This document shows positions 8,482 to 26,205 of a DNA stretch of 26,205 nt, in pieces; positions within the stretch are counted from its first letter, which is position 1, and each line of letters opens with the position of its first letter. The notes under the pieces are model-generated. The model ran no database searches and was not told where the DNA came from. It saw nothing but the letters and a program-made list of their open reading frames with translations. Both the position numbers and the translations under genes were made by a program. This DNA is from a virus, in IMG/VR virus record IMGVR_UViG_3300025896_000171, positions 1-26,205 of that record; one strand, 5' to 3'.

Positions 8482-8498
8482 GTCTGAGGAAAAACACA

Positions 8499-9605: not shown

Positions 9606-9628
9606 GAATTAACTAAGGAGACATTATT

Positions 9629-10831: not shown

Positions 10832-10860
10832 TCTAACAAGATTAGTTAAGTTTAACTAAG

Positions 10861-10886: not shown

Positions 10887-10902
10887 ATTGGGTAAGTATA
10901 CT

Positions 10903-11133: not shown

Positions 11134-11139
11134 TCCTCT

Positions 11140-11147
11140 GGTAAATA
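11140..11147 (+). promoter_or_regulatory. Candidate late promoter before the holin gene
   Basis: GGTAAATA lies 20 bases before the holin ATG, in a 34-base gap. The same octamer stands before the tape measure gene and before the fibre gene at 18538. The short distance leaves room for only a brief leader containing the AGGAG-type binding site. Confidence 0.35.
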
Positions 11148-11167
11148 CATTCATAGGAGACATTGCG

Positions 11168-11614
11168 ATGCCAAAATACGATGATTATGATGACACAGGG
11201 GCAACTGCCTCAATGAGTCCAGCTGCACAACAAAATATCAGTAATAAACTAGCCGCAGGTGGCTGGAGTTCTGCTGATGACGCAGCAAAAACAAAAGGCA
11301 TTGCTGACGCTGCTGCAATTACTACTGCTGGTGGAGCAACAACATTACTTGAAACTGATGATAAGTTTGGTAAGTTTGTAAACAGCAAATGGCGCCCACT
11401 TATGGCATTCCTTTATATGATTACTTGCTTCACTGACTTTGTGTTATTTCCAATTTTATGGTCAATACTACAGGCAGTCCAAGGAGGACAAGTAACAAGC
11501 CAGTGGAGCCCTCTTACACTACAAGGCGCCGGCTTATATCATTTAGCAATGGGCGCAGTATTAGGATTGGCTGCATATGGCAGAAGCCAAGAAAAGATTG
11601 CAGGTAAATCCTAA
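11168..11614 (+). CDS. Holin-like membrane protein
   Basis: This 148-residue protein has a soluble N-terminal half (about 1-70, Asp/Ala-rich) and two membrane segments: about 77-103 (after KWRPLMAF) and about 116-137 (LYHLAMGAVLGLAAYG). The arrangement, with WRP before the first helix and SPLTLQGAGLY before the second, matches the 3-TM holin family first described for gene transfer agents (GTA_holin_3TM, as I recall it). Holins open the inner membrane at the end of infection. ATG has TAGGAG nine bases upstream. Its stop overlaps the next ATG as TAATG, so it is coupled to a fibre-type protein. No endolysin or spanin gene lies nearby. A structural membrane protein cannot be excluded. Confidence 0.7.
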   Translation: MPKYDDYDDTGATASMSPAAQQNISNKLAAGGWSSADDAAKTKGIADAAAITTAGGATTLLETDDKFGKFVNSKWRPLMAFLYMITCFTDFVLFPILWSILQAVQGGQVTSQWSPLTLQGAGLYHLAMGAVLGLAAYGRSQEKIAGKS

Positions 11615-12759
11615 TGGCAATTAAGACGAATCATGCAACTGATTCATTGACACCTACGTCGGGTGTATTGGAAGTGAACGCAACTGGGGCAATTGCATTG
11701 CCAGTTGGACCAACAGCTGATCGTCCAATGATCAGCGCAGCAGGTTATATTCGGTTTGCTGATGAAATTGTAACACCAGAGTATTATGATGGTACAAACT
11801 GGCAAACTATCTCAAATAAAGAATATGTTGATAGCAGAGTAGGAAACTCTGGAACATCGCTAACTACGGTAATTGCCAATCTAACATTGGATGATCTTGC
11901 TGATGTTAACATAAATGCTCCTGGATCTAATCAATTACTATCATACGATACTGAACTTGGACAGTTTACAAATAAAACACAAGCCCTTGCAATCGTCACA
12001 CGTATGTTTGCAGGAGATGGAATCGCCATGACGTTTGATATTTTAACAAACGTTTCTGCAATTCAAAATTTAGTAGTAAGTATAAATGGTATTCAACAAG
12101 AACCATACTACAGCTACACATTAGTTGATGGTCATATTATCGCATTTGACGAATCACCAGCAGCTGGTGATAGAATTCAGATCAAAATTTTGAATGCAAC
12201 TGTATCAACTGATCGTGCAAGACCAAGAGTCCTTAACGTATCATATGGTGTAGTTGCACAGTTTACTACAATTACTATTGTAGCCACAGACATTATATAC
12301 GGAACAGGTGCCAAAATTGGCGGTCAGTCTATTACAAGAATTGACTATCCTGGTCAAGGAAGAATTCAACTTATGGTTGAAACAAGTCGCATGAGTGGTA
12401 TGCTCTGGCAGTATCCACAAGACTTAACATTGGTAGATACCTCTGGGAACGAATTCGCTTTCCCAAATTTAATAAACTACGGTGCCACCCACCCGCAGTG
12501 GATTGAATCTAATTCTTATATTGGAAGTTTTAAAGGTGGTAGTGTAATTAATTACACACTTCAGCTAAATAATGCTGTTAGTATAACAATAAACCCTGCT
12601 TATGCAGGTGAGACTGCTATTCCCTGGTTATCTATTAGCAACTCTAATATCGTAGGTACTGCCCCTATAAACAGTAGTCCTAGTCGATATGAATTCACAA
12701 TAACTGCAAGCAATGGAAGCGTTGATATAACGAAAAACTTCTGGCTACTTGTAATTTAA
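11614..12759 (+). CDS. Virion fibre/adhesin-type protein with Ig-like C-terminus
   Basis: This 381-residue protein opens with an N-terminal segment common in phage fibre proteins (RFADEIVTPEYYDGTNWQTI, then a KEYVDSRV helix start). Around 90-130 it has DLADVN...LLSYDTELGQF. At 132-194 a FxGDG...VSINGIQQEPYYSY...AAGDRIQIKI module follows, and the same pair of modules ends the 1,655-residue fibre encoded next. The last 80 residues fit a cadherin/He_PIG-like Ig fold (WLSISNSNIVGTAP, then YEFTITASNGSV). It starts inside the holin stop (TAATG). It is probably an external tail or capsid decoration. The exact position in the virion is not deducible. Confidence 0.75.
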   Translation: MAIKTNHATDSLTPTSGVLEVNATGAIALPVGPTADRPMISAAGYIRFADEIVTPEYYDGTNWQTISNKEYVDSRVGNSGTSLTTVIANLTLDDLADVNINAPGSNQLLSYDTELGQFTNKTQALAIVTRMFAGDGIAMTFDILTNVSAIQNLVVSINGIQQEPYYSYTLVDGHIIAFDESPAAGDRIQIKILNATVSTDRARPRVLNVSYGVVAQFTTITIVATDIIYGTGAKIGGQSITRIDYPGQGRIQLMVETSRMSGMLWQYPQDLTLVDTSGNEFAFPNLINYGATHPQWIESNSYIGSFKGGSVINYTLQLNNAVSITINPAYAGETAIPWLSISNSNIVGTAPINSSPSRYEFTITASNGSVDITKNFWLLVI

Positions 12760-12816
12760 ACATCCTTCTTACGTTGGTTGGCGCCATACTTAAAATGCCA
12801 AAAACAAAACTAATTT

Positions 12817-12832
12817 GATCTCATTAGAGATC
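12817..12832 (+). promoter_or_regulatory. Small inverted repeat in the leader of the giant fibre gene
   Basis: GATCTC-ATTA-GAGATC forms a 6-bp stem with a 4-base loop. It ends six bases before the CGAGGA ribosome binding site of the gene starting at 12852. It could be an operator or a leader hairpin that affects initiation. No promoter consensus is clear in the 92-base gap. Confidence 0.25.
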
Positions 12833-12851
12833 TAATACGAGGAAAATAAAC

Positions 12852-15800
12852 ATGCCTATTATCAAAGCAAGATCAAGTTCGATTATCGATTCAGTTGATC
12901 TACGCGGGACACCAACAGTTGCTACAGCTACTGCAGGTTCCAGCACAACACAAGTTGCTTCTACTGCGTTCGTTAGCACAGGAATCAGTAACTTAGTCAA
13001 TTCTGCACCAGCAGTATTAGACACCCTATCAGAGTTGGCAACTGCTCTTGGTAGTGATGCCAATTTTGCAACAACAGTTGCAGCATCTATTGCAACAAAA
13101 GTATCAAGTAGCGGCGATGTAATGTCTGGCTTCTTGACATTACATGCAAATCCAGCTAACGACTTACATGCTGCTACTAAATTATACGTTGATGGTTTAA
13201 TCAACGCACAGATGATTTACAGTACAGATGATGTCCCAGAAGGTGTATTAAATTCATACTACCATACTGCACTTGTTCAAGCCGACATTGGTTTAACAAG
13301 TGACAACACAGCGGTATTGAGTTATGCTAACGGTCAATTCACTTACAACCACCCAACAAGTGATGGTGTATTAGAAGGCCAGACTAATCAGTACTTCACA
13401 CCAACCCGTGCTCGTGCTGCCATTAGTTTAAACAGTGATGACAATGGTATTTTAAGTTACGCTGGTAGCACTGGCGCAAGTGCTGGACAATTTACATTTG
13501 TAACTCCAAGCACAACAAAAATCACTGAAGGTACACAGTTGTACTTTACAACAGCTCGTGCTCGTGCTGCTGTTAGTGGTGGTAACAACATCAGCTATGA
13601 TTCAGCAACTGGTATTATCAGTTCTGTTGCCACAGTTGAAAGTGTCAATGGTCAAACTGGTGTTGTTGTATTAACAACTTCACACATTGATGAAGGTTCA
13701 CAGTTGTACTTTACAGCCGGTCGTGCAGTTACTGCCAACGCTGCTGCTGTTGCTGCTGTACAAGCTGCTGTTGATGCCGAAGCTATTGCAGCTCGTGCTG
13801 CTGAAGCAACATTGACAACTGACTTAGCAACTGAAGCTGCTCGTGCTATTGCTGCCGAAGGTGTATTGACAACTAATTTAGCTGCTGAAGCCACTCGTGC
13901 TGTTGCTGCCGAAGGCGTATTGACTGCTGCTATTGCAGAAGAACATGCTCACCACACAGCCGCTGAAACTACATTGACAGCTGACTTGGCTGCTGAAGCT
14001 GTTACTGCTCGTGCTGCTGAAGCCGGTTTAGCAAGTGACTTGGCTGCTGAAGCTGTTACTGCTCGTACTGCTGAAGCTGCTATTGCTAGCGATTTAGCCA
14101 TTGAAGTTACTGCACGTACCAATGGTGATACAACAAATGCAACTGCTATTGCTGCTGAAGCTACTACAGCCCGTGCTGCTGAAGGTGTATTGACCGCTGC
14201 TGTTGCCTCTGAAGCTACTACAGCCCGTGCTGCTGAAGCCGCATTGACAACTGACTTATCAGCCGAAGCTACTCGTGCAACTGCTGCTGAAGGCGTATTG
14301 ACTGCTGCTGTTGCTGCTGAAGCAACTGCTCGTGCTGCTGCTGTTACTGCTGAAGCAACTGCTCGTGCTGCTGGTGATACTGCATTGGGTGTTCGCATTG
14401 ACAACGTATTAAGCAACATTGACCCAGCTGCTCTTGATTCCTTAACAGAAATTATTGCTGCTTATGATGCTGCTGATGCAGGTTTACAACAAGCTATCAC
14501 TGATTTGGCAAGTGCAAACGCAGCCGCTATTGCTGCTGAAGCTGCTACACGCTTGGCTGCTGATGCTGCCCACGATACTGCTTTTGTTACAGAAGCCAGT
14601 GCTCGTGTTGCTGGTGATGATACAAATGCTGCTGCTGTAGTCGCCGAAGCTGCTCGTGCTGCTGCCGCCGAAACAACTAATGCAACTGCTATTGCTGCTG
14701 AAGCTACTACAGCTCGTGCTGCTGAAGCAACATTGACAACTAACTTAGCAAGCGAAGAAACTCGCGCAACTGCTGCCGAAGGTGTATTGACTGCTAACGC
14801 AATTGCTGAAGCTGGTTTACGCGAAGCTGGTGATGTTGCTAATGCTGCTGCTACTGCTGCTGAAGCTACTCGCGCAACTGCTGCCGAAGGCGTATTGACT
14901 ACTGCTGTTTCTACAGAAGTTGCTCGCGCTACTGCTGCTGAAGGCGTGTTGACAACTGACTTAGCAACTGAAGCTGCTCGTGCTGTTGCTGCTGAAGGCG
15001 TGTTGACTACTAACTTGGCTGCTGAAGTTGTTCGCGCAACTGCTGCTGAAACAACTAATGCAACTGCTATTGCTGCTGAAACTGCTCGTGCAACTGCTGC
15101 TGAAGTAGTAAACACTGCTGCAATTGCTGCTGAAGAAACTGCTCGTATTCTTGCCGATAGCGCAGAAGCATCTAACCGTGCTATTGCTGTAAGTGCAGAA
15201 GCTACTCGTGCTACTGCTGCTGAAACTGTATTGACAAATGCAGTAGCTGCTGAAGCTGCTCGTGCAACTGCTGCTGAAGGCGTATTGCAAGCCAATGTTG
15301 ACGCAGAAGCTGCTACACGTTTGGCTGCTGATGCTGCTGAAGAAACAGCACGTATTGCTGCTGTTGCTGCTGAAGAAGCTGCTCGCATCGCTGCTGACGG
15401 TGTATTGCAAGCTAATATTGATACAAACGCTGCTGCTTACATTGCTGCTGATACTGCATTAGGTGCTCGTATTGACAATGTTCTAAGCAATATTGATCCA
15501 GTTGCACTTGACTCATTGACAGAAGTTGTTGCTGCTTTCCAAGGTGCTGATAATACTATCAACGGTGCTATCACTTCATTGGCTGCTTCTGCTGCTGCCA
15601 ACTTGGCTGCTGAAGCTAGTCGCGCAACTGCTGCTGAAGGCGTGTTGCAAGCCAATATTGACGCAGAAGTTGTTGCTCGTACAGCTGATGTTGATGCTGA
15701 AGCTGCTGCTCGTATTGCTGATGTTGATGCTGAAGAAACTCGCGCTACTACTGCCGAAGGCGTATTAACCGCTGCCGTTGCTGCTGAAGCTACTACAGCT

Positions 15801-17819
15801 CGTGCTGCCGAAGGCGTATTGACTGCTGCTGTTGCTGCTGAAGAAGCTGCTCGTGTTGCTGCTGTTACTGCTGAAGAAGCTGCTCGTGTTGCTGGCGATG
15901 ATACATTGCAAGGTCAAATCTTTGAAAATGCTACTGCAATTACTGCCGAAGAAGCTGCTCGTATCGCTGGCGATGCAACAAATGCTGCTGCTGTCGTTGC
16001 AGAAGCCACTCGTGCAACTGCTGCTGAAGGTGCATTAACAACTGCATTGGCTGCTGAAGCTACTACAGCTCGCGCTGCTGAAGTTGCAAACGCTGCCGCG
16101 ATTGTTGCTGAAGAAACTCGTGCCACTGCTGCTGAAGTTGCTAATGCTACTGCAATTTCTACAGAAGCTACACGTGCCACTGCTGCTGAAGCTACATTAA
16201 CAGCCGCTGTTGCTGCCGAAGAAACTCGTGCCACTGCTGCTGAAGTTGCTAATGCTGCTGCAATTACTGCTGAAGCTGCTACCCGCGCTGCTGCCGACAC
16301 TGCTGGCGCAACTGCATTGTCAACTGAAACAGCTCGTGCTGTTGCTGCTGAACAAGCAAACACTGCTGCTATTGTTGCCGAAGAAACAGCTCGCATTGCT
16401 GCTGTAAGTACAGAAGCTGCTGCTCGTGCTGTTGCTGATACTGCATTGGGTGCTCGTATTGATGATGTATTAAGCAACATTGATCCAGCTGCTCTTGATT
16501 CCTTAACAGAAATTATTACTGCCTACAATGCTGCTGACTCTAGCTTAACACAAGCCATTAGTGATTTAGCAAGCGCAAGTGCTACGGCAACTGCAAACGA
16601 AGCTGCTACACGTTTATCTGCTGACAATGCACTATCAACTGCATTAGCTGCTGAAGTAAGTCGTGCAAGCACAGCCGAAGCGGCAAATGCAACTAACATC
16701 AGCCTTGAAGTTGCCGATCGTACAACTGCTGACACAACATTGCAAGCCAATATTGATGCTGAAGCTGCTACTGCTCGTGCTGCTGAAGGTGTATTGACTG
16801 CTGCTATTGCTGCCGAAGCCACTCGTGCCACTGCTGCTGAAGTTGCAAACACTGCTGCAATCGCTGCTGAAACTGCTCGTGCTACAACTGCTGAACAAGC
16901 AAATGCTGCTGCTGACGTAATTGAAGCTGCTGCTCGTGTTTCAGGTGACTTGGCTGTTCAAGCTAACGTTGACGCAGAAGCTACTGCTGCTCGTACTGCT
17001 GAATCTGCATTGGGTACTCGTATTGATACATTGAACACAGATAACATTGCTGAATTAAGCGGTGCTATTAACTTGTTCTTTACAGAAGGCCGCGCTAAGG
17101 CTTCTATCAGTAGTGGTGCAAATATCCAGTATAACAGTTCAACTGGTGTTATCAGCACATTGGCTGCGGTTCAAAGTGTTAACGGCTTAGATGGCGTTGT
17201 TACATTGACTACAGACAATGTATCCGATTCAACAGCAACCAACAAGTACTTTACAAACGCACAAGCTCGTAGTGCTGTTTCTTTAGTTAGTGACAACACT
17301 AGCATCTTAAGTTACAATGCAGGTACTGGTGCGTTTACATTTGCTGTTCCTTCAACAGATGCAATTGCAGAAGGTGCAGTAAATCTTTACTACACCGATG
17401 CTCGTGCAGATGGACGTATTGCTCTTGCTAATGTAGGTGATTTAGCCGACGTTGATACAAGCGGTACATTAAGTGATGGTTATACATTAGTTTGGAGTTC
17501 ATCACAAGGCAAGTTTGTGGCGCAGAACATTACAACTACTGTTATAACACAAAACTTTACTGGTGACGGCACAACTGCTTCGTTTAGTACAGGTGTTGAA
17601 GTTGGTTCAATCCAGAATACGCAAGTATTCGTTAACGGATTGGTACAAGCTCCAACTTACTCATACACAATGAGCACTGTAAACGGCGTATCAAGTATTG
17701 TGTTTGATGCTGCTCCGGAAGCTAACGACTTCATTATGGTTCGTTTAACACCAACAGTTACTTTAAGTGCTGGTGGTATCTTGAACCAAAATAGTGATAT
17801 TGATGGTGGTACATATTAA
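12852..17819 (+). CDS. Giant Ala/Glu-rich coiled-coil tail fibre
   Basis: This is a 1,655-residue protein. Residues 1-120 form a typical fibre attachment region (TTQVASTAFV, then VLDTLSELATALGSDANF, then ATKLYVDGLI). Residues 120-295 carry repeated modules built on LYFTxxRARAAxS and ISYDSATGII. Residues 296-1390 are a low-complexity coil of AAExTRATAAEGVLT-like units. The coil is interrupted three times by a conserved module (starting at about 514, 872 and 1201: RIDNVLSNIDP followed by ALDSLTEI). The C-terminal part returns to LYYTDARA modules and ends with the DLADV/GDG/VNG module shared with the protein at 11614. Trimeric coiled-coil fibres have this design. Ribosome binding site is GAGGA. 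No S74-type chaperone is present at its C-terminus. Its receptor and place on the virion are unknown. Confidence 0.85.
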   Translation: MPIIKARSSSIIDSVDLRGTPTVATATAGSSTTQVASTAFVSTGISNLVNSAPAVLDTLSELATALGSDANFATTVAASIATKVSSSGDVMSGFLTLHANPANDLHAATKLYVDGLINAQMIYSTDDVPEGVLNSYYHTALVQADIGLTSDNTAVLSYANGQFTYNHPTSDGVLEGQTNQYFTPTRARAAISLNSDDNGILSYAGSTGASAGQFTFVTPSTTKITEGTQLYFTTARARAAVSGGNNISYDSATGIISSVATVESVNGQTGVVVLTTSHIDEGSQLYFTAGRAVTANAAAVAAVQAAVDAEAIAARAAEATLTTDLATEAARAIAAEGVLTTNLAAEATRAVAAEGVLTAAIAEEHAHHTAAETTLTADLAAEAVTARAAEAGLASDLAAEAVTARTAEAAIASDLAIEVTARTNGDTTNATAIAAEATTARAAEGVLTAAVASEATTARAAEAALTTDLSAEATRATAAEGVLTAAVAAEATARAAAVTAEATARAAGDTALGVRIDNVLSNIDPAALDSLTEIIAAYDAADAGLQQAITDLASANAAAIAAEAATRLAADAAHDTAFVTEASARVAGDDTNAAAVVAEAARAAAAETTNATAIAAEATTARAAEATLTTNLASEETRATAAEGVLTANAIAEAGLREAGDVANAAATAAEATRATAAEGVLTTAVSTEVARATAAEGVLTTDLATEAARAVAAEGVLTTNLAAEVVRATAAETTNATAIAAETARATAAEVVNTAAIAAEETARILADSAEASNRAIAVSAEATRATAAETVLTNAVAAEAARATAAEGVLQANVDAEAATRLAADAAEETARIAAVAAEEAARIAADGVLQANIDTNAAAYIAADTALGARIDNVLSNIDPVALDSLTEVVAAFQGADNTINGAITSLAASAAANLAAEASRATAAEGVLQANIDAEVVARTADVDAEAAARIADVDAEETRATTAEGVLTAAVAAEATTARAAEGVLTAAVAAEEAARVAAVTAEEAARVAGDDTLQGQIFENATAITAEEAARIAGDATNAAAVVAEATRATAAEGALTTALAAEATTARAAEVANAAAIVAEETRATAAEVANATAISTEATRATAAEATLTAAVAAEETRATAAEVANAAAITAEAATRAAADTAGATALSTETARAVAAEQANTAAIVAEETARIAAVSTEAAARAVADTALGARIDDVLSNIDPAALDSLTEIITAYNAADSSLTQAISDLASASATATANEAATRLSADNALSTALAAEVSRASTAEAANATNISLEVADRTTADTTLQANIDAEAATARAAEGVLTAAIAAEATRATAAEVANTAAIAAETARATTAEQANAAADVIEAAARVSGDLAVQANVDAEATAARTAESALGTRIDTLNTDNIAELSGAINLFFTEGRAKASISSGANIQYNSSTGVISTLAAVQSVNGLDGVVTLTTDNVSDSTATNKYFTNAQARSAVSLVSDNTSILSYNAGTGAFTFAVPSTDAIAEGAVNLYYTDARADGRIALANVGDLADVDTSGTLSDGYTLVWSSSQGKFVAQNITTTVITQNFTGDGTTASFSTGVEVGSIQNTQVFVNGLVQAPTYSYTMSTVNGVSSIVFDAAPEANDFIMVRLTPTVTLSAGGILNQNSDIDGGTY
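13740..17020 (+). repeat. DNA-level repeat array in the giant fibre gene
   Basis: Short units built on GCTGCTGAAG plus CGTGC(T/A)ACTG recur over about 3.3 kb, coding for AAE.TRA.AAE.VLT units. Many stretches are almost identical at synonymous positions, so recent duplication or gene conversion is likely. The array is coding throughout and has no spacer-like unique segments of fixed size. Confidence 0.85.
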
Positions 17820-17844
17820 TCTTAAAGTAATTTAAGGTTTAGAT

Positions 17845-17871
17845 AAGGAAAGGCGCAATGCGCCTTTCCTT
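17845..17871 (+). terminator. Terminator after the giant fibre gene
   Basis: A 12-bp perfect stem AAGGAAAGGCGC / GCGCCTTTCCTT with a 3-base AAT loop lies 25 bases after the stop. The last T-run is part of the stem, and CTGATC follows. It is very stable and clearly separates this gene from the next one. Confidence 0.75.
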
Positions 17872-17878
17872 CTGATCG

Positions 17879-17886
17879 CATAAATA
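17879..17886 (+). promoter_or_regulatory. Candidate late promoter before the 166-residue fibre protein
   Basis: CATAAATA, seven of eight positions of the T4 late consensus, lies eight bases after the terminator and 44 bases before the ATG at 17931. An imperfect inverted repeat (ACATATTA-CCG-TAATATATGT, 17895-17915) follows and could be a leader hairpin or operator. Confidence 0.45.
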
Positions 17887-17930
17887 GAACTGATACATAT
17901 TACCGTAATATATGTAAAACGAGTCAATTA

Positions 17931-18431
17931 ATGCCAATTTTTCGCGGAAAAGAGTTTGTTAGCACCATATCAGACAGCAAGGATAGTGTCAGAGTAGCCA
18001 CGCGGTCGCATGTACCATTGCTTGCTGCAATTTCTATTATTGATGAAGTCAATCTAGTACATCAGGATCGTGTATTATTAGCTGGACAAACCAATACTGC
18101 TTACAACGGAATTTACATTTGGAATTCTGTAACTGGTAAACTAATTCGCGCAACTGATGCTGACTCAACAATTGAAGTATCAGGCGGCATGCGAATGTAT
18201 GTTGAAGAAGGCGCCACTAATGCGCAAACATATTGGACATTGACTACGCCCGGCGTAATAATTTTAGGAACAACTGGTTTAACCTTTGCGCGTGACAATC
18301 GTGTAGGCAACTTTGATCAATCAGGTACTCACGGTTCAGCAGCACTTACAAATATTCTTGTACTAGACGAATCGGGTCAAATCACCTCAATAACACCTGT
18401 ATCCATTAATTTAGATGGCGGAGAATTCTAA
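17931..18431 (+). CDS. Phage fibre/receptor-binding-type protein, 166 residues
   Basis: The protein consists of one module widely found in phage tail and fibre proteins. It runs as SVRVATRSHVPL, then DRVLLAGQTNTAYNGIYIW, RATDADS, VEEGATNAQTYWTLTT and LGTTGLTFAR, covering residues 20-130. The module normally sits inside larger fibre proteins, so a small stand-alone copy could be a tip, collar or accessory adhesin. ATG at 17931 has only a weak binding site (ACGAG, nine bases before). It is a separate unit, with a terminator before it, a candidate promoter in its leader and a small hairpin behind it. No catalytic residues are apparent. Confidence 0.7.
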   Translation: MPIFRGKEFVSTISDSKDSVRVATRSHVPLLAAISIIDEVNLVHQDRVLLAGQTNTAYNGIYIWNSVTGKLIRATDADSTIEVSGGMRMYVEEGATNAQTYWTLTTPGVIILGTTGLTFARDNRVGNFDQSGTHGSAALTNILVLDESGQITSITPVSINLDGGEF

Positions 18432-18440
18432 GACGTTTGT

Positions 18441-18463
18441 ATAGCTTTACAGCTATTTGTTTC
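18441..18463 (+). terminator. Weak hairpin after the 166-residue gene
   Basis: ATAGCT-TTAC-AGCTAT forms a 6-bp stem ten bases after the stop, followed by TTGTTTCT. The low-stability stem with a T-rich tail makes it a possible weak terminator. Confidence 0.35.
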
Positions 18464-18470
18464 TACTAAA

Positions 18471-18478
18471 GGTAAATA
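18471..18478 (+). promoter_or_regulatory. Candidate late promoter before the 640-residue fibre gene
   Basis: GGTAAATA lies 59 bases before the ATG at 18538, just after the weak hairpin. It is the third exact copy of this octamer placed in a gap before a gene. Confidence 0.35.
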
Positions 18479-18537
18479 CTTCTGGAAGGCAGGATCCGAT
18501 CACCCTGCTAAACATCCAAGAGGAGTATATACTCAAA

Positions 18538-20460
18538 ATGGCTAATCAAATCATTTTAAAGCGTAGTTCAACGGCAGGCAAGGCACCACTTGTAGCGCAG
18601 TTGGCATTAGGCGAAATCGCTATCAACACACATGATGGTAAAATCTACATTAAGAAAGATGACGGCGTACCTGCTGTTGTTGAAATTGGTGGAGTTACAA
18701 GCGTTAACACACAAGGTGGTGACGTAGTTTTAGGAACTGCAAATATTGCAGAAACAGGTTCCAACCAATACTTTACAACTGCTCGCGCTCGCGCAAGTAT
18801 CGTTGCAGGTTCTGGTATTTCTTATAATAGCACTACTGGTGCTGTTAGCACAAGTCAAAATTTGACAACAACTGGTGCACCAACTTTTGCTGGTGTAACT
18901 TTAACTGACACAGCAAGCACAAAGAGCATTGTTCCAAGTCTAAGTAACACTTATGATCTTGGTACTGTTGCTAATCCATGGCGCCACGTTTATGTTGGTC
19001 CAGGTTCTTTGTATGTTAACGGTAAGCAAGTTTTAACTGAAACTAGTGGTACAATGACATTCACAGCTGACTTAGATCAGAACATGCGTGTTACAACAAC
19101 TGGTACTGGTTTACTTCAGTTCGGTTCAAGCACAACAGGTGTAAACATTGACGGTACGTTACAATTTGCTGCTGGCAAACGTATTATTTCTAGCGATGGT
19201 ATTAAAGTTCAATTCGGCGACGATGTTGAATTAAACGGCAACAAAGTTATTGGTTTGGGCGTACCTACTGCACTAACTGATGCAGCCACTAAAGGTTATG
19301 TTGATACAAGCATTTCTGCAATCAGCACAAGCACAATCAGCCAAGGTAACAGTAACATTTCGGTTGTTGACAGCGGAACTGGTACAGTAACAGTTACAGT
19401 TGACGGTAGCACAGCATTGACAGTTACATCAACTGGTGTTGTTATTGCTGGTAACATGACAGTTGAAGGTACAACTACAAGCGTTAACTCTAATACAATC
19501 AGCTTGGCTGATAACATTGTTACATTGAATAGTGACGCAGTTGGCGTCCCAACTCAAAACGCAGGTATTGAAGTTGAACGTGGCGATGAAGCAAACGTAC
19601 AATTACGTTGGAACGAAGGTTTACAAAAGTGGACATTCACTAACGATGGCGCAGTTTACACTCAAATTGCAACAAGCACAGATTCATTGGCAGAAGGTAC
19701 AACAAACTTGTTCCACACTGCTGGTCGTGCTCGTGCTGCTCTAAGTGCAAGTACAGCATCTGGCGTAAGCTATAACAGTGCAAGTGGTTTAATCAGCTTG
19801 GGTTCTATCCCTAATAGCTCATTAACTAACAACAGCGTTACAGTTAACGGTGCAAACGTTGTATTAGGTGGTTCAATTACGTTAGGCGTTGCTGACATTT
19901 CTGGTGCTGCAACTACCACTTCTGTAACAGCCGCTATTGCAACTGCTGCAACTGATGCAACTACTAAAGCTAACGCAGCTCAAGCAGCCGCAATTGCTTC
20001 TGCTGCAACTGATGCAACTACTAAAGCTAATGCAGCTCAAGCAGCCGCTATCAGCGCAGCCGCAACTGATGCAACTTCTAAAGTAGCAGCTGAAGCAACT
20101 GCTCGTAATGCAGCCATTACTGCTGCCGTAGCGTTAAAAGATAACACAGACGAAATTACAGAAGGTACTACAAACTTATTTTATACAGATGCACGAGTTG
20201 CAACTCGTGTAACTAGTGGTTTGACATACTTCCATGCTACTTTCCAATCTGTTACATCTGTACAAGCTACTGCTAACGCAACTGGATCAGTTGCATTTAC
20301 ATTTGCTGACTTAGCTACTGCTAAAGGCTATAACGTGTTCTTAAACCGTATGTTGTTACGTCCAACTGAATTCTCAGTTAGTGGTTCTACACTAACTATT
20401 GCAGCTGGTATGTTGTCAACAGCTGATGAAGTTGAAGTAAGCGGATTAAAATTCGCGTAA
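18538..20460 (+). CDS. Tail fibre protein with Mtd-like N-terminus
   Basis: I place the start at ATG 18538, which has AAGAGGAG upstream and gives 640 residues; an earlier in-frame ATG at 18457 lies in the leader and lacks a binding site. The N-terminus (ILKRSSTAGKAPLVAQLALG, then EIAINTHDGKIYIKKDDG) is the virion-attachment type seen in many phage fibres and in the major tropism determinant N-domain. Following modules include YFTTARARASI, KVIGLGVPTALTDAATKGYV, a TTTSVNSNTISLADN beta-helix-like segment, and a coiled coil (about residues 465-530). The C-terminus (FNR-like LNRMLLRPTEFSVSGSTLTI) is a small beta domain. It has no S74 chaperone. It shares a perfect 95-base stretch with the next fibre gene. 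Confidence 0.82.
   Translation: MANQIILKRSSTAGKAPLVAQLALGEIAINTHDGKIYIKKDDGVPAVVEIGGVTSVNTQGGDVVLGTANIAETGSNQYFTTARARASIVAGSGISYNSTTGAVSTSQNLTTTGAPTFAGVTLTDTASTKSIVPSLSNTYDLGTVANPWRHVYVGPGSLYVNGKQVLTETSGTMTFTADLDQNMRVTTTGTGLLQFGSSTTGVNIDGTLQFAAGKRIISSDGIKVQFGDDVELNGNKVIGLGVPTALTDAATKGYVDTSISAISTSTISQGNSNISVVDSGTGTVTVTVDGSTALTVTSTGVVIAGNMTVEGTTTSVNSNTISLADNIVTLNSDAVGVPTQNAGIEVERGDEANVQLRWNEGLQKWTFTNDGAVYTQIATSTDSLAEGTTNLFHTAGRARAALSASTASGVSYNSASGLISLGSIPNSSLTNNSVTVNGANVVLGGSITLGVADISGAATTTSVTAAIATAATDATTKANAAQAAAIASAATDATTKANAAQAAAISAAATDATSKVAAEATARNAAITAAVALKDNTDEITEGTTNLFYTDARVATRVTSGLTYFHATFQSVTSVQATANATGSVAFTFADLATAKGYNVFLNRMLLRPTEFSVSGSTLTIAAGMLSTADEVEVSGLKFA
19943..20037 (+). repeat. 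95-bp perfect repeat, copy in the first fibre gene
   Basis: This stretch is identical base for base to 21485-21579 in the next fibre gene and lies in the same codon phase (second codon position in both). It encodes the coiled-coil unit AATDATTKANAAQAAAIAS and its partial repetition. Confidence 0.9.
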
Positions 20461-20473
20461 TATAACTGGCTAA

Positions 20474-20499
20474 AGACAGGGGTTTGACATCCCCTGTCT
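20474..20499 (+). terminator. Hairpin after the 640-residue fibre gene
   Basis: A 9-bp perfect stem AGACAGGGG / CCCCTGTCT with an 8-base loop starts 14 bases after the stop. No T-tract follows, so efficiency is uncertain. Confidence 0.55.
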
Positions 20500-20571
20500 G
20501 TACGTTGGCAACAACGGACATGGAATAACAATAGTTTATTCTTCGTGCTAGTAAACTCAAAGGAGAGAAAA

Positions 20572-22554
20572 ATGTCTGAACGTAAATTAAAAAATAGTGG
20601 TACCACAAGCGAAGTATCATTGGACAAAACAAAAAACTACAAATATGACAAGAGTGGTGCTCTTGTAGAAGCAACAACAGTTGGTGATAACGATATCGTT
20701 TTTAGTGGTAGCAAGTCTAGCTTGCGCCGCTTGTCTGATTTGGAACGTAACGTTTCAATTCTTGCAGCCACATTGACAACAACTGACGGTGGAGTAACTG
20801 ACGCGCAAGATGATACGTTTGCTGGTATTTTTACAACTGCACAACGTTTCAAGGGTACAGTTCAAATTGACGGTGCAGCAACATTTGCTTCAGATGTTGC
20901 AATGTCTAGTAAGAAGATTACTGGTTTGGGTACACCAACTGCAACTGCTGATGCAAGTACTAAAGGTTATGTTGACTCTACAGTAGCTACTGAAGTTACA
21001 GCTCGTAATTCAGCAATCGCAACTGCAAAGAGCGAAGCAACTAGTGCAGCCGCAACTGATGCAGCTTCTAAAGTAGCTGCTGAAGCAACCGCTCGTGATA
21101 CAGCTATTGCAACTGCAAAGAGCCAAGCAATCAGCGCAGCCGCAACTGATGCAACTACTAAAGCCAACAGTGCGCAATCAAATGCAGCAAGTGATGCAAC
21201 TACTAAGGTAGCTGCTGAAGCAACTGCACGTGATACAGCAATTGCAACTGCTAAAGCAGCCGCAATTGCTTCTGCTGCAACTGATGCAACTACTAAGGTA
21301 GCTGCTGAAGCAACTGCACGCGATACTGCTATTGCAACTGCCAAATCTGCTGCACTTAGTACTGCTGCTACTGATGCAACTACTAAGGTAGCTGCTGAAG
21401 CAACTGCACGCGATACTGCTATTGCCGCCGAAGCAACTGCTCGTGATACAGCTATTGCAACTGCTAAAGCAGCCGCAATTGCTTCTGCTGCAACTGATGC
21501 AACTACTAAAGCTAACGCAGCTCAAGCAGCCGCAATTGCTTCTGCTGCAACTGATGCAACTACTAAAGCTAATGCAGCTTCAGCAGCCGCTATTGCCGCA
21601 GTAACTAACGGTGCAGGCGCAGCTTTTGATACATTGGTTGAAATCCAAAATGCAATGGCAACTGATGCTGAATTAGCATCTGCTATCGCTGCAATTTCTA
21701 ACGTAGCAACTGCAACTAAGTTACAAACAGCCCGTGCAATTCAAGGCGTAGCCTTTGATGGTTCTGCAGCAATCACTGTAGTAACTGCTGGTACAGGTAT
21801 TAGCGTTGTTGGTACAGCAGTTGCTAACACTGGTGTATTGAGCGTTTCTGGTACAGCACCAGTTGTTTCAAGCGGTGGTGCATCTCCAGCGATCAGTATG
21901 GCTGCTGCAACATCTCTTGCTAACGGATACATGACAAGCACATACGCTGCTAAGTTAGACGGTATTGCCGCAGGAGCAACTAACGTAAGTAATACAAACC
22001 AATTGACTAACGGTGCCGGTTTTATTACTGGTATTTCAAGTGCAAACGTTACAACAGCGTTGGGCTTTACTCCGTATAACAGTACTAACCCAAGTGGTTA
22101 TATCGTTGCAAGTAGTAATACAAGTGGTACACATACTGGTGCAGTAAGTACAGTCAGTGCATGTTCAACTGGTGCTTTAGCAGTATCTGGTGGCATTACT
22201 GCTACTGGTGAAATTACAGCTTACTACTCTGACGTTAACTTAAAGAAAGATATTGTAGAAATTACAGATCCTATTGCTAAAGTTATGTCTTTACGTGGTG
22301 TTACTTTCCGTCCTAACCAAACAGCGTTAGACTTAGGTATCATTGACAAAGAAGAAGTTGGTGTTATTGCTCAAGAAGTTGAAGCAGTATTGCCACAGTT
22401 GGTAACCCCATCTGCATTCAAAGGCTTCAAGACTGTCAAGTATGACAAGTTGACCGCGTTATTGCTCGAAGCAGTAAAAGCGCAACAATTACAAATCGAC
22501 GCTCTTAGAGCAGAAATTTCTAAATTGGGTGGTTCAGCTACAACTGAACTATAA
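20572..22554 (+). CDS. Tail fibre with C-terminal S74 self-cleaving chaperone
   Basis: ATG at 20572 follows AAAGGAG and gives 660 residues. The N-terminal 120 residues are unique (MSERKLKNSGTTSEVS). KKITGLGTPTATADASTKGY, as in other fibres of this block, and an Ala-rich coiled coil (about 140-345) with a 90-base repeat follow. A FDTLVEIQNAMATDAELASA module, a beta-rich region and a C-terminal peptidase S74 domain complete it. The S74 start reads YYSDVNLKKDI, with Ser553 and Lys558 in the Ser-x4-Lys spacing of the known catalytic dyad, and later GVIAQEVEAVLPQLV. The domain of about 108 residues helps trimer folding and then cuts itself off. This is probably a receptor-binding fibre. Confidence 0.88.
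   Translation: MSERKLKNSGTTSEVSLDKTKNYKYDKSGALVEATTVGDNDIVFSGSKSSLRRLSDLERNVSILAATLTTTDGGVTDAQDDTFAGIFTTAQRFKGTVQIDGAATFASDVAMSSKKITGLGTPTATADASTKGYVDSTVATEVTARNSAIATAKSEATSAAATDAASKVAAEATARDTAIATAKSQAISAAATDATTKANSAQSNAASDATTKVAAEATARDTAIATAKAAAIASAATDATTKVAAEATARDTAIATAKSAALSTAATDATTKVAAEATARDTAIAAEATARDTAIATAKAAAIASAATDATTKANAAQAAAIASAATDATTKANAASAAAIAAVTNGAGAAFDTLVEIQNAMATDAELASAIAAISNVATATKLQTARAIQGVAFDGSAAITVVTAGTGISVVGTAVANTGVLSVSGTAPVVSSGGASPAISMAAATSLANGYMTSTYAAKLDGIAAGATNVSNTNQLTNGAGFITGISSANVTTALGFTPYNSTNPSGYIVASSNTSGTHTGAVSTVSACSTGALAVSGGITATGEITAYYSDVNLKKDIVEITDPIAKVMSLRGVTFRPNQTALDLGIIDKEEVGVIAQEVEAVLPQLVTPSAFKGFKTVKYDKLTALLLEAVKAQQLQIDALRAEISKLGGSATTEL
21193..21462 (+). repeat. 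90-bp tandem repeats in the S74 fibre gene
   Basis: GATGCAACTACTAAGGTAGC with following sequence recurs at 21193, 21283 and 21373, exactly 90 bases (30 residues) apart. It encodes DATTKVAAEATARDTAIA coiled-coil units. The unit after the third copy is truncated, giving AAEATARDTAIAAEATARDTAIA. Confidence 0.85.
21485..21579 (+). repeat. 95-bp perfect repeat, copy in the S74 fibre gene
   Basis: This is the partner of 19943-20037, 1,542 bases downstream (a multiple of three). The reading phase is the same as in the first copy, so a crossover would keep both parts in frame. Confidence 0.9.
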
Positions 22555-22580
22555 TCTAGTGAAAAGAGGAGGCAAATAAA

Positions 22581-22763
22581 ATGGCAATTCTTCCAGCAAC
22601 TGGATCATCAATTTCGTTTGGTAATGTCAAGCGCGGCTATTCTAATACAACTGGTGCAAACGTATCGCTACGTGGAACACTTGGAGGATACTTAGGTATT
22701 TCTGCAGGCTCAGTTGGATTAAGTTCAACATTTGGTGGACGTACAACACCATACGCTATCTAA
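22581..22763 (+). CDS. Small Gly/Ser-rich virion-associated protein
   Basis: This 60-residue protein begins MAILPATGSSISFGNVKRGY and is rich in Gly, Ser and Thr, with no membrane segment or cysteine. Short proteins with an (P)ATG-x-ISF start followed by a Gly-rich body occur beside fibre genes in many phages of aquatic bacteria, and the same start also heads larger tail proteins. It has a good AGAGGAGG binding site and sits 26 bases after the S74 fibre stop, before a strong terminator, so it is the last gene of the fibre unit. A fibre-tip or assembly role is a guess from position. Confidence 0.6.
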   Translation: MAILPATGSSISFGNVKRGYSNTTGANVSLRGTLGGYLGISAGSVGLSSTFGGRTTPYAI

Positions 22764-22777
22764 ACAATAGCATGCTA

Positions 22778-22804
22778 AGAAAAGGGCTTCGGCCCTTTTC
22801 TTTT
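22778..22804 (+). terminator. Intrinsic terminator of the fibre unit
   Basis: A 10-bp stem AGAAAAGGGC / GCCCTTTTCT closes on a TTCG tetraloop with C-G closing pair and is followed by TTT. This is the most classical terminator in the window. Confidence 0.9.
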
Positions 22805-22858
22805 GGCTAACTTTTCTAGTGTAGCGTCGATACATAGTTAAACATAGAAGGAGCTACC

Positions 22859-23365
22859 GTGTCACTAACACAAAACGAAATTTTAAATAATACAAGGGCA
22901 GTATTAAAACAAGTCCCATTCCGTACAAACTTTGAGAGAGACAATTTTGTATACGGCGTAGCAACTGGCCCCCGTTTACTTGTGTCTCTTTGCCAAGAGA
23001 TGGAGTTTCTAAATAACGAGGCAGATAAGGCAACTAATGATTGGTCAAGGGACGCAATTATTGAAGAAATGAATACAATTAACGCCAAAATTGCAGAATT
23101 ACAAGCCGAAGTTGGTAGTGATGTACGCACAGCACTGGAAGCAGCCGAACCCGCATTTTGGGTAGACGATCTTGCTAAAAAAGCAGCAGTTGAAGCAATT
23201 TGCCAATCGGTAACAGTGGCAAATATGGATCAGATGTTAAAGCTACCTGCAGAGTTATATGAGGATACCATTGTTAAATGTCAAACCTTCTTAAATGTGA
23301 TTAATAAGACAACTCGCCAGGCCGAACGTAAAGCCAATGTGAGCAATGTTTCTAATAACGAATAA
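22859..23365 (+). CDS. Uncharacterised helical protein, 168 residues
   Basis: The frame starts with GTG at 22859, supported by GAAGGAG eight bases upstream. The protein is charged and predicted helical throughout, with a coiled-coil-like centre (IIEEMNTINAKIAELQAEVG, about residues 61-80). An N-terminal segment VPFRTNFERDNFVYGVATGP looks conserved in style. I do not recognise a family. Its stop overlaps the ATG of the glycosyltransferase-like gene as TAATG, so the two are translationally coupled and may work together. It follows the strong terminator of the fibre unit, so it needs its own promoter, but I see no clear consensus in 22805-22850. Confidence 0.7.
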   Translation: MSLTQNEILNNTRAVLKQVPFRTNFERDNFVYGVATGPRLLVSLCQEMEFLNNEADKATNDWSRDAIIEEMNTINAKIAELQAEVGSDVRTALEAAEPAFWVDDLAKKAAVEAICQSVTVANMDQMLKLPAELYEDTIVKCQTFLNVINKTTRQAERKANVSNVSNNE

Positions 23366-24021
23366 TGTTTGGTAAGTTAAGCAATAGTATATTTGACAAG
23401 CAACCTGCACTTAGCGAGCAGGTTGTTATTTGTGTTCCTACCAATGGAATGGTGCATGCACAATTTACCTATTGCCTAATCAAAGCAATACAGTACACAG
23501 AGAAGCAGGGTATCCCTGTAATTCTCGATATGGATGCTGGAACAGTACTAAGCAATCAACGACAGGTGTTACTGACAACGGCAATTGATACGCATGATGC
23601 AGAGCATATTATGTGGCTCGATAGCGACATGACATTCCCAGAAGATGTTATCGTTCGGTTACTTGAACATAATAAACGTGTAGTATGTGCAACGTACTCC
23701 AAGCGGGTACCGCCATTTCATCCAACTGCCTTTATAAGCATTGACCCGGTAGAACCAGTTGATACAGAAGGGCACGGTCTTGTAAATGTTCGATATACTG
23801 GATTTGGTTGCGTATTAATGAAAGCAAGTGTAATTGACGATATGCCAAGCCCACATTTTCCATTAAAGTGGCATGCGCCGAGTTCAACTTGGCATGGTGA
23901 AGATATGGGATTCTGTGACTTGCTAGATCACAATGCTATTAAGATATTTTGCGACTTAGATCTTAGTCGCGAGATTGGGCATTTAGGTCAGCGAGAGTTT
24001 CTAGTGAATCAGGCAAACTAA
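23365..24021 (+). CDS. GT-A-type glycosyltransferase-like protein
   Basis: This 218-residue protein has the layout of phage-encoded GT-A glycosyltransferases. The N-terminal strand VVICVPTNGMV starts it, MWLDSDMTFPEDVI follows with a DxD-type motif at 86-88 (metal and sugar-nucleotide binding), then TGFGCVLMKASV, HGEDMGFCDLLD (acceptor/base region, Asp180) and SREIGHLG with His206. These features match inverting glycosyltransferases, but donor and acceptor cannot be told. Possible targets are virion proteins, host surface or DNA; the nearby fibre block makes virion glycosylation plausible. It is coupled to the upstream 168-residue gene (TAATG). Its last 59 bases overlap a convergent reading frame on the - strand. 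Confidence 0.75.
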   Translation: MFGKLSNSIFDKQPALSEQVVICVPTNGMVHAQFTYCLIKAIQYTEKQGIPVILDMDAGTVLSNQRQVLLTTAIDTHDAEHIMWLDSDMTFPEDVIVRLLEHNKRVVCATYSKRVPPFHPTAFISIDPVEPVDTEGHGLVNVRYTGFGCVLMKASVIDDMPSPHFPLKWHAPSSTWHGEDMGFCDLLDHNAIKIFCDLDLSREIGHLGQREFLVNQAN

Positions 24022-24400
24022 CAAAAAACGCACACCATCGTCTTAACTTTTTAAGATTAACAGCAGCGGACAATTGATACTCTGGGTGGTTGTTGCTTTG
24101 TAACATACTACGCATAAAAGCACCGTCAATGACGGTGCTTTTTATTAAGTGCATTTTTAATTCATGATCTGATACAACACTATTAAGAAGTGGATGTGTC
24201 CACGTTTCATCATTTATCAATCGTCGAAGTTCTAAAAACCAACGTTCGGTATACGCAATGTTATCTTTGTACAAATTATTAAGAAGTGGATTGTTAAGCC
24301 ACGTTGCCCAACATTGCTGAAAATTAAGCTGGCGGTGCGGCCCTGTGTATATTTCCAATGGTTGTTTGTTAATGGTGTTTTTAATTACTCGTAACGCCAT
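23963..24400 (-). CDS. Uncharacterised protein, convergent with the glycosyltransferase gene
   Basis: This 145-residue frame starts with ATG at 24400, 20 bases inside the end of the Nudix gene, and ends within the convergent glycosyltransferase gene. Composition is protein-like, with aromatic-rich and basic patches (CWATWLNNPLLNNLY, TERWFLELRRLI, LKKLRRWCAFFV) and no low complexity. I recognise no family. A strong bidirectional terminator hairpin lies inside it at 24117-24143, encoding KSTVIDGAF. Transcripts ending there would lack the last 50 codons. Either the gene is real and read through the hairpin, or only its upstream part is translated, or the frame is fortuitous. Confidence 0.5.
   Translation of the reverse strand: MALRVIKNTINKQPLEIYTGPHRQLNFQQCWATWLNNPLLNNLYKDNIAYTERWFLELRRLINDETWTHPLLNSVVSDHELKMHLIKSTVIDGAFMRSMLQSNNHPEYQLSAAVNLKKLRRWCAFFVSLPDSLETLADLNAQSRD
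24117..24143. terminator. Bidirectional intrinsic terminator between convergent genes
   Basis: A 12-bp perfect stem AAAAGCACCGTC / GACGGTGCTTTT with an AAT loop has A/T-runs on both arms, so it can act in both directions. It lies 96 bases after the glycosyltransferase stop. It is also inside the - strand frame 23963-24400, where it is read in frame. Confidence 0.85.
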
Positions 24401-24812
24401 TTAGCAAACCTTCTAACGATTCTTTAAAGCCACGACTGCTAAACATTTTTGCAGTATTACGATGCAGCGGTTGCGGCCATTCCCAGAGATTAACCCAGCA
24501 GTAGCCAGCACTTTCCTCATCTATCATAGGAATAAATTCGTCTTCGCATAAAATCAAATAACTAACATGGCGAAAGCGTTTATCACGGGTGGTAAACGTG
24601 TATACGTGACTCATTGCAATTGTATTAGGAACACCTGGAAAGCCAAGTTCTTCACATAGCTCACGCTTTAGCCCATTAAGATCACCCTCGTCGCCATCTA
24701 ACTTACCTCCCCACAATCCCCAACACATGCTATGTGTTTCCGACGGGCTACGAAGTTGCATCATAACCCTGCCGGTATTTTTACTTACAATTAATGCGCC
24801 AACAGCTCTCAT
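24381..24812 (-). CDS. Nudix hydrolase
   Basis: This 143-residue protein carries a complete Nudix box: G36-x5-E42-x7-R50-E51-x2-E54-E55-x-G57 within GKLDGDEGDLNGLKRELCEE and the following LGF. The preceding WGLWGGK and the N-terminal strand RAVGALIVSKNTGRVMMQLR fit the fold. Nudix enzymes cleave nucleoside diphosphates linked to another group (for example oxidised dNTPs, NADH, ADP-ribose or capped RNA); the substrate here is not evident. T4 also encodes a Nudix enzyme (NudE), though not beside gene 15. It starts eight bases after the gp15 stop and overlaps the next frame by 20 bases, so it is cotranscribed with tail genes. Its binding site is weak (GTAAG). Confidence 0.92.
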   Translation of the reverse strand: MRAVGALIVSKNTGRVMMQLRSPSETHSMCWGLWGGKLDGDEGDLNGLKRELCEELGFPGVPNTIAMSHVYTFTTRDKRFRHVSYLILCEDEFIPMIDEESAGYCWVNLWEWPQPLHRNTAKMFSSRGFKESLEGLLNGVTSN

Positions 24813-24820
24813 ATTCTTAC

Positions 24821-26170
24821 TTAGTTTACAATGCGCCAGTAACCCTGCTCGAAGATACCTTCAAGTGCAAGTACCCAATCAGTTCCTGTAAAATATAACT
24901 TGGCCATTGTATTTGCATTGGTAGTATATGCAACAGAGTTAACAGCACTTGCATCAAAGCTAACAATCCAATTGCTACCATTGTATTCAATGATATCATT
25001 TGCATCAGCAACAAGATTCCCCCACATGCTATTTTGTACAACTGACTTAGTTAGTAAATAACGCTGCCCTGGCGCAACTGCTGGAATGTTTCCATTACCT
25101 GGGTGGCTACCAGTTGGGTCAATAATACCATTAATCATTGTAATAGTATCAGTTGGCAATGTTGACAGATCAGTGGTGTATGACAACACATTTACGTTTC
25201 CTGGTACTTCTGTAATTTTTAAAATTACTTCATGTGCATTACTAATATCGCCAAGCTTCAATCTAATTTCTGTAATGCCATTGTGCATACCACCGTAATG
25301 ACTAAAGTGATCGGCCCAACTTAATTTGGCGCCATCACCGCCTGAGGCTGATGTATCAGAATTGTTACTGTTTAGTAGTTGAATAAAGTCATCAGTGACT
25401 CGAATATGCCTATCCTCAAACGTAATCCATTGACGGCTTGAAGGAGCATTATTGTTAATAACAATGTCGTCAATAAATCCGTAGTTTGCATCTACATTAT
25501 TGATGATGCTGTGAATAAGCACCTGTCGCTTGACCTTGGCAGGCGGCGTTAAGAAAATTGGTAATTGGAAGATTAAACTTGCAACATCAATGATATCATC
25601 AGTACCTTGCGGAATGCTACGTGCAGTCCATGTAATGTTTATAAGTTCAACAACTGCTAAACTTGTCCAGTCATACGGATTTTGGCTGCTTTGCAAGTTA
25701 ACTGAAGGATTAAACAGCAATAAGATTTGTTCCAATAGCTGTAGCTTTTGTTCAGTATTACTGGTCCAAATATCTACGTTAATTGTCAAATCAAACGGGA
25801 TAGGAGCATGCCGCTCTAGTGTATAAGTTTCACCAACTTGGTCTTGATAATTCCCAGCAGCTGGATCATATTGCTTTTCGTAAATCTGCACACTATCTTC
25901 AAACGACGGCGTCATTCTACGTTCTGCATTTGGTAACAGTTCTGCAATATAGCAACTAATAGCAGGCACACTTAACATTGTGTTCTCACTATTATTACGA
26001 AGTATGTGCTGACTCATACGAGTAGTGTCGCCGTAACGAACAGGAACCTGATGATAGTTGTCAAGTCCGTTTGCATCTTTGCCCATCTTTACACTGAACC
26101 CACCAAACAGTCTCATGAACTGTAGTAACCAACGTCTTATTTGTTGATCATAAAAATAGGACTGGGCCAT
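24821..26170 (-). CDS. 15: Tail sheath stabiliser / completion protein (T4 gp15 family)
   Basis: This 449-residue protein has the gp15 signatures of T4-like phages: YDQQIRRWLLQFMRLFGGF at the start, VPVRYGDTTRMSQHILRNNS, ERHAPIPFDLTINVDIWTSN followed by TEQKLQLLEQILLLFNPS, then DWTSLAVVELINITWTAR and FLTPPAKVKRQ. gp15 forms the ring that caps tube and sheath and meets the head neck. It is longer than T4 gp15 (272). The extra C-terminal region (about 270-449; GQRYLLTK, NDIIEYNGSNWIVSFD, GYWRIVN) resembles the extension I remember from cyanophage versions. ATG has GAGGAG upstream and overlaps the stop of the preceding gene as TAATG. Confidence 0.88.
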   Translation of the reverse strand: MAQSYFYDQQIRRWLLQFMRLFGGFSVKMGKDANGLDNYHQVPVRYGDTTRMSQHILRNNSENTMLSVPAISCYIAELLPNAERRMTPSFEDSVQIYEKQYDPAAGNYQDQVGETYTLERHAPIPFDLTINVDIWTSNTEQKLQLLEQILLLFNPSVNLQSSQNPYDWTSLAVVELINITWTARSIPQGTDDIIDVASLIFQLPIFLTPPAKVKRQVLIHSIINNVDANYGFIDDIVINNNAPSSRQWITFEDRHIRVTDDFIQLLNSNNSDTSASGGDGAKLSWADHFSHYGGMHNGITEIRLKLGDISNAHEVILKITEVPGNVNVLSYTTDLSTLPTDTITMINGIIDPTGSHPGNGNIPAVAPGQRYLLTKSVVQNSMWGNLVADANDIIEYNGSNWIVSFDASAVNSVAYTTNANTMAKLYFTGTDWVLALEGIFEQGYWRIVN

Positions 26171-26205
26171 TATAGCTCTCCTCGCTTAATAGCTTCTCGA
26201 CGCAG
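26170..26205 (-). CDS. C-terminal end of an upstream gene (partial)
   Basis: The frame LRREAIKRGEL followed by TAA runs in from the right edge and overlaps the gp15 start as TAATG. It also contains the gp15 ribosome binding site. In T4 the gene before 15 is 14 (neck protein), so this may be a gp14 homologue, but eleven residues cannot prove it. Confidence 0.55.
   Translation of the reverse strand: MRREAIKRGEL

Follow-up and report, generated by a model that had tools for sequence, protein, structure and literature searches.

A 95-bp repeat shared by the shafts of two neighbouring fibre genes in a T4-like phage contig, and fused forms of such genes in related phages

Tail fibres set the host range of phages, and the step from one fibre protein to two, or the reverse, is known mostly from a few T5-like and spike-bearing phages. 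In the T-even group, recombination of distal tail-fibre genes at repeated conserved motifs, a theme associated with Tetart, Desplats and Krisch (1998), is said to reshuffle the adhesins. Among the T5-like phages, DT57C, DT571/2 and DT530 have two adjacent fibre genes, ltfA and ltfB, where relatives have one, and the report on them describes identical, in-register direct nucleotide repeats common to both genes (PMC4728585). According to the same text, an in-register deletion in DT530 produced a single open reading frame (ORF), which its authors ascribe to recombination between identical ltfA and ltfB sequences, and in DT571/2-ABF residues 1-663 of LtfA are fused to residues 288-767 of LtfB, with a changed host range. 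Experimental evolution of PP01 is described as having produced deletions of 579-686 bp in its gp37 fibre gene (PMC6027323), and the XD2 domain of the CBA120 tailspike TSP4 is described as supplying the binding site for TSP2 (PMC8825819). The locus considered here is a pair of adjacent fibre genes with a long repeat in common. It lies on the IMG/VR virus contig IMGVR_UViG_3300025896_000171, all 26,205 bp of which were analysed and are referred to as the window; the record is a fragment and, judging from its Pfam matches to portal gp20, S77 prohead protease, gp23 capsid and gp15 sheath stabiliser, is a contig of a T4-like phage.

Gene 1 (18538..20460; this and all other window features given below are on the plus strand) encodes a base fibre of 640 amino acids (aa), with a conserved N-terminal part, an alanine-rich shaft and a C-terminal domain termed G1z. 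Gene 2 (20572..22554) encodes a second fibre of 660 aa, with an N-terminal domain termed G2a, an alanine-rich shaft, a variable tip and a terminal Peptidase_S74 domain (chaperone of endosialidase, hereafter S74), which gene 1 lacks. Positions 19943..20037 in the gene 1 shaft and 21485..21579 in the gene 2 shaft are identical at 95/95 positions; their offset of 1,542 bp is divisible by 3, and both copies are in codon phase 1 of their ORFs. The exact comparison thus agrees with an initial annotation of this DNA, which had noted a perfect, phase-matched 95-bp repeat at this distance in the two neighbouring fibre genes. We read the identity, with a probability of roughly 0.7, as the footprint of a recent in-frame shaft exchange in a two-piece fibre locus that can fuse, thereby losing the joint between its two pieces.

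Both copies sit within alanine-rich shaft repeats, namely the gene 1 array (19903..20136), with a period of 57 bp or 19 aa, and the gene 2 array (20968..21618), with periods of 90 bp and 57 bp. Like the Ltf proteins, these fibres thus have a 19-aa repeat block in the shaft, although the repeats shared by ltfA and ltfB are placed in C-terminal regions in the accessible text, whereas here they occupy the alanine-rich shaft. The window contains 34 maximal exact direct repeats of at least 24 bp, of which the 95-bp one is the longest, and every offset is divisible by 3. As further exact repeats of 49, 43, 31, 27 and 25 bp also link gene 1 to gene 2, the 95-bp repeat represents the extreme of a repeat-rich region and not an isolated feature. 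Its identity ends abruptly: widening the block on each side by 10, 20 and 30 bp brings in 5, 11 and 21 mismatches, respectively.

Protein similarity does not explain the 95-bp identity, because codon shuffles fall well short of it. When synonymous codons were permuted inside both arrays, leaving proteins and codon usage unchanged (n=1000), the longest shared block had a mean of 23.3 bp and a maximum of 50 bp, and 0/1000 shuffles reached 95 bp; synonymous shuffles of the whole genes (n=500) gave at most 40 bp. Since the shuffles stop at 50 bp, and the window's gene 1 array matches the gene 2 array of another genome over no more than 33 bp, the identity is best read as the result of a recent in-frame exchange. 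The initial annotation had offered the trace of a recent exchange as one of its two interpretations, and this is backed by the shuffles, by the array comparison and by the copies themselves, which match each other at 100%, against 90.3% (L014) or 89.5% (L018) for the best copy elsewhere among the loci then at hand. The array test was extended to nine two-gene genomes of the close clade, with 500 shuffles each. In five of the nine the block shared by the gene 1 and gene 2 arrays exceeds all 500 shuffles (the window, 95 bp; L010, 41 bp; L012, 48 bp; L014, 50 bp; L038, 53 bp), the pattern expected if exchange between shaft arrays had occurred repeatedly, though not in every genome, of this clade.

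Turnover of low-complexity arrays, in which slippage or homogenisation together with biased codons would give long identity unlinked to fusion, is an improbable source of the repeat. It could draw on the tandem arrays of both genes, with internal exact repeats of up to 56 bp, on the use of ACT in 46 of the 54 threonine codons of the arrays, and on the four of nine relatives without a clear excess of sharing. However, the array-only shuffles already include the codon bias and remain at or below 50 bp, and the 95-bp block spans 1.67 repeat units with an AAC/AAT difference in the same order in gene 1 and gene 2. Moreover, within-gene slippage is unable to copy a block into another gene, and the other alanine-rich arrays of the genome share just 17-18 bp with this locus (the gene at 12852-17819 has exact sharing of 18 bp with gene 1 and 17 bp with gene 2). 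Repeats of such length can also confuse short-read assembly, and similar arrays might have been collapsed into identical copies. This we regard as very improbable, given that the flanks of the two copies are clearly different and that other genomes likewise share 41-53 bp, far below read length. A second IMG/VR contig (L009, 7,746 bp) is 100% identical to window positions 18453-26198 and has both repeat copies, though it possibly stems from the same read set or assembler.

Relatives were collected by scanning viral_contigs with each gene and mapping the ORFs of the matching contigs. Two architectures were found at one syntenic locus, which is bounded upstream by the gene at 17931..18431, present in both two-gene and fused relatives, and downstream by three genes (22581-22763, 22859-23365 and 23365-24021, together 22581..24021). 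Where there are two genes, G1z closes gene 1, and gene 2 runs from an N-terminal G2a to a terminal S74; where there is one, the N-terminal part of gene 1 leads through repeats to an S74 end. The fibre type anticipated in the initial annotation, with the N-terminal part of gene 1 and the S74 chaperone of gene 2, is therefore present in relatives at the same locus, and the comparison with relatives that it proposed does recover chimeric fibres, not all relatives having two genes. As in DT530(1) and DT571/2-ABF, the fused ORF joins the N-terminal part of the first gene to the tip of the second, with the difference that those fusions are described as observed in culture and the present ones are known from comparative sequence alone. 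In the shortest fused form (L062-L064), gene 1 is represented by no more than its first 103 residues.

A tree of residues 60-450 with 25 rows (9 two-gene loci, 15 fused loci and L092, whose second gene lacks G2a) shows five changes of architecture, at least four of them on well-supported branches. Two fused loci, L018 and L032, are nested in the window's own two-gene clade (support 100/100). In sliding comparisons their first half is nearest to gene 1 of the clade and their last part to gene 2, with the switch inside the array, and the same relation recurs in other lineages with different shaft repeats (L029 versus L036, and L035 versus L022). The best explanation appears to be that loci of this family have passed between the two-piece and the one-piece state on several occasions. 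An alternative is that the fused relatives were not fused in place and instead took their fibre segments whole from fused-type phages, the 95-bp repeat being an unrelated recent conversion. Tips do move often, as the S74 type, assigned by motif, changes at least 12 times on the 25-row tree of gene 1, and capture from another fused phage is possible for L018 and L032 because their arrays contain modules absent from the window genes. Nevertheless, the downstream halves of both have their nearest counterpart in gene 2 of their own two-gene clade and not in distant fused genes, and no G2a is left in the fused records tested, so that we consider acquisition of whole segments unlikely, if still a serious competitor. 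L018 and L032 were also considered as simple 1,542-bp deletions at the 95-bp repeat, which they are not: long arrays are retained, and the part missing corresponds approximately to window positions 20196-20981 in L018 and 20127-20990 in L032. Another arrangement is seen in L092 (1817-6915), where a gene 1 of 1,077 aa without G1z or S74 is followed by an S74 gene without G2a; this may be an intermediate or the result of decay.

The 1,542 bp between the repeat copies comprise the remainder of the gene 1 shaft, G1z (20224..20457), the intergenic stretch (20461..20571; 111 bp long, against 110 bp in the majority of close relatives) and the start of gene 2 with G2a (20572..20871), which contains the near-invariant motif SGSKSSLRR..D.ERN..ILA. 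Joining the flanks across the repeat gives one open frame of 824 aa. The crossover outcome proposed in the initial annotation therefore holds as regards an in-frame fused fibre, but the stretch removed extends beyond the intergenic region, into the end of gene 1 on one side and the start of gene 2 on the other. Fusion removes exactly the joint, while the base of one fibre and the tip of the other are retained; as the initial annotation had missed the probable docking pair in the removed stretch, the meaning of the fusion changes accordingly.

G1z and G2a are strictly coupled. In a count of 22 of the records then at hand, G2a occurred in 8/8 two-gene records and in 0/14 others (13 fused records and L092; two records of this group measure 285 kb and 172 kb). 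A G2a profile scan, taken together with the earlier loci, gave 61 distinct G2a genes, 53 of them with an upstream ORF on the contig; this ORF ends in G1z in 50 cases, is another G2a gene in two and is neither in one. Conversely, among 67 distinct ORFs with the gene 1 region (a count omitting ORFs open at the 3' end or with less than 700 bp downstream, loci above L161 and duplicates), the 19 with G1z all lack S74 and are all followed by G2a (19/19), whereas G2a comes next in 0/48 of those without G1z, 20 of which have an S74 end and 28 neither domain at the end. Some rows of the 53-gene and 67-ORF counts also served to build the profiles. Queries with G1z only retrieved 11 loci, two of them newly found (L244 and L248), with G2a next in 11/11. 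Searches with both domains by tblastn against 50,697 phage records gave no match at E 0.01 and 0.1, and a search of the bacterial and archaeal genome assemblies of genome_contigs yielded no G2a. The pair further separates this locus from ltfA-ltfB: S74 is described on both Ltf proteins but here is confined to gene 2 (0/19 G1z-ending ORFs end in S74), and the accessible account of that system describes no such pair; nor did a search of the open-access literature return a description of it. In a contig with several such genes, L079, four G2a-type fibre genes are present (3330-5222, 8240-10354, 10525-12372 and 12511-14517), three of them in tandem; a G1z-ending gene precedes the first of these three, which we read as a serial duplication of the second fibre.

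The structure model of G1z has a predicted local distance difference test score (pLDDT) of 97.3, and its best match among solved structures is residues 187-250 of CBA120 TSP4, the XD2 domain with its beta-jellyroll fold (Foldseek rank 1, E 0.011; Z 7.8, root-mean-square deviation 1.9, 64 residues aligned). XD domains such as XD2 and XD3 of TSP4 and T4 gp10 are described as docking a second fibre or spike trimer (PMC8825819). This likeness is support and not proof, because its score lies under the level that excludes a common arrangement and other phage neck and tail proteins match G1z at Z 7.0-7.5. Unlike the domains described in TSP4 and gp10, G1z stands alone at the C-terminus of a long fibre, and G2a, modelled as beta-hairpins with a helix (pLDDT 72.0), has no known relative. 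We propose that G1z and G2a are probably a matched pair of docking domains, and their co-occurrence suggests that G1z physically binds G2a.

We envisage the locus as encoding a two-piece fibre, in which gene 1 would form the base with its terminal docking domain G1z and gene 2 would extend from the partner domain G2a to the tip and the S74 folding chaperone, the end of gene 1 most likely docking the gene 2 fibre as a hinge or branch. A recent in-frame exchange between the adjacent alanine-rich shaft arrays, either gene conversion or unequal crossing-over, may have left the 95-bp identity. Recombination between shafts, within one genome or between co-infecting genomes, would delete G1z, the intergenic stretch and G2a and join the shafts in frame. 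The outcome would be a one-piece fibre whose base comes from gene 1 and whose tip and chaperone come from gene 2. Homologous recombination in the shafts is thus the presumed route of fusion, and the fused product would be expected to alter receptor use or host range. The recombination mentioned above for T-even phages reportedly consists of swaps between phages, whereas here neighbouring genes would fuse and lose the joint. The large shaft deletions described for PP01 gp37 likewise affect a fibre gene of a T4-like phage and were repeatedly selected, but as described they fall within a single gene and involve no fusion of two (PMC6027323). In view of DT530 and DT571/2-ABF, the fusion suggested in the initial annotation is a process already described in another phage group; what is new is that it recurs naturally in these T4-like phages, that it lies in shaft arrays, that only one of the two genes has the chaperone, and that there is a G1z/G2a pair. 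The result is a naturally occurring series that combines both states of one locus, a domain pair exclusive to the two-gene state and a repeat marking recent shaft exchange, which makes the step of splitting or fusion directly testable. A more speculative and rather doubtful extension is that G1z and G2a, together with the intergenic stretch between them, act as a portable "joint cassette", which would enter and leave fibre genes through the shaft repeats and cause repeated changes between one-piece and two-piece (hinged or branched) fibres with base and tip kept, exchange keeping the in-frame repeats in step and so the route open.

Several results weigh against the reading of shaft exchange and fusion. 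In 4/9 genomes of the close clade the excess of array sharing is weak or absent, the observed block being reached by 1 (L037), 4 (L039), 9 (L011) and 201 (L015) of 500 shuffles. In L018 and L032 the junctions are blurred by extra array modules missing from the window genes, and the reciprocal hybrid, with a G2a start and a G1z end, was not found among the ORFs of L009-L161. The match of G1z to XD2 does not reach Z 8, so that a common arrangement could score equally, and has a Foldseek E of 0.011, and a structure search with the G2a model gave no match. L022 was considered as proof of horizontal transfer of the joint, but its placement is suggestive only (approximately unbiased test, p-AU 0.099). 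Finally, neither a deletion product nor a single-copy version of the repeat is present in viral_contigs, and 8/8 near-identical contig pairs (at least 99.7%, from different samples) have the same state and length.

The last two results bear most directly on the other interpretation of the initial annotation, a built-in switch, whereby the repeat would be maintained as a recombination site and the two-gene and deleted forms would both exist at appreciable frequency. The perfect, in-phase repeat would suit such a switch, the 824-aa product falls within the 761-1253 aa of complete fused ORFs with the full gene 1 region, and the fusions of DT571/2 and DT530 arose in culture. However, the deletion could be undone only with DNA from outside, the long exact repeat is specific to this genome and not conserved in relatives, and the exact 42-base core of the repeat occurs in just one contig of viral_contigs, where it is present twice. 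The window and L009 also agree in state. A fast switch is therefore unsupported, as this genome is represented by no contig with the deletion and near-identical contigs are uniform in state. The deletion junction that the initial annotation had proposed to look for was absent from the assembled contigs of viral_contigs, and this, together with the constancy of the near-identical pairs and the failure of L018 and L032 to fit simple deletions at the repeat, makes a built-in switch quite improbable. Because a mark of exchange is accompanied by relatives with both fibres merged in one gene, the locus is better regarded as a natural route of fibre rebuilding than as a proven on/off switch. Shaft change on a smaller scale is seen in the pair L020/L023, which are 93% alike and differ by a 93-bp shaft insertion, so that shafts change length at a scale of about 93 bp. 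An invertible switch of the Mu/P1 type was rejected, since the 95-bp copies are direct and only two weak inverted pairs (82%) occur in 16000-26205; a Pfam scan of 17 ORFs of the window, itself a fragment of the phage, found no DNA invertase.

The S74 chaperone that the initial annotation placed on the second gene corresponds to a Pfam match to PF13884 at 22228..22404 (E 5e-12; 46.3 bits against a cut-off of 22), and a sequence search of the PDB with gene 2 gave four matches, the best being to a long-tail-fibre distal subunit over the S74 end. With gene 1 the same search gave no match, and the "Mtd-like" character ascribed to its N-terminus did not hold up, as this region matches no Pfam family and only a phage long-tail-fibre profile, at residues 4-51. 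A reading based on Mtd and a diversity-generating retroelement was likewise discarded, as the repeat copies differ at 0 positions and the 17 ORFs scanned include no reverse transcriptase. The variable middle and tip module of gene 2 (21604..22227) is unlike that of the close relative L015; collagen-like Gly-Pro-Thr repeats lie between shaft and S74 in L010, L015, L018 and L032, whereas gene 2 of the window has a different tip module.

Beside the fibre locus, the gene at 23365-24021 is glycosyltransferase-like, with weak matches to Anp1 and PHROG 34859, and is retained in close relatives. The alanine-rich gene at 12852-17819 encodes a fibre-like protein of 1,655 aa and contains many 54-bp repeats; a gene of similar size lies upstream in several relatives. 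Elsewhere in the window, a tape-measure-like gene (1522-5046) contains a 168-bp tandem repeat at 3697-4218, in two to three copies with about 75% matches.

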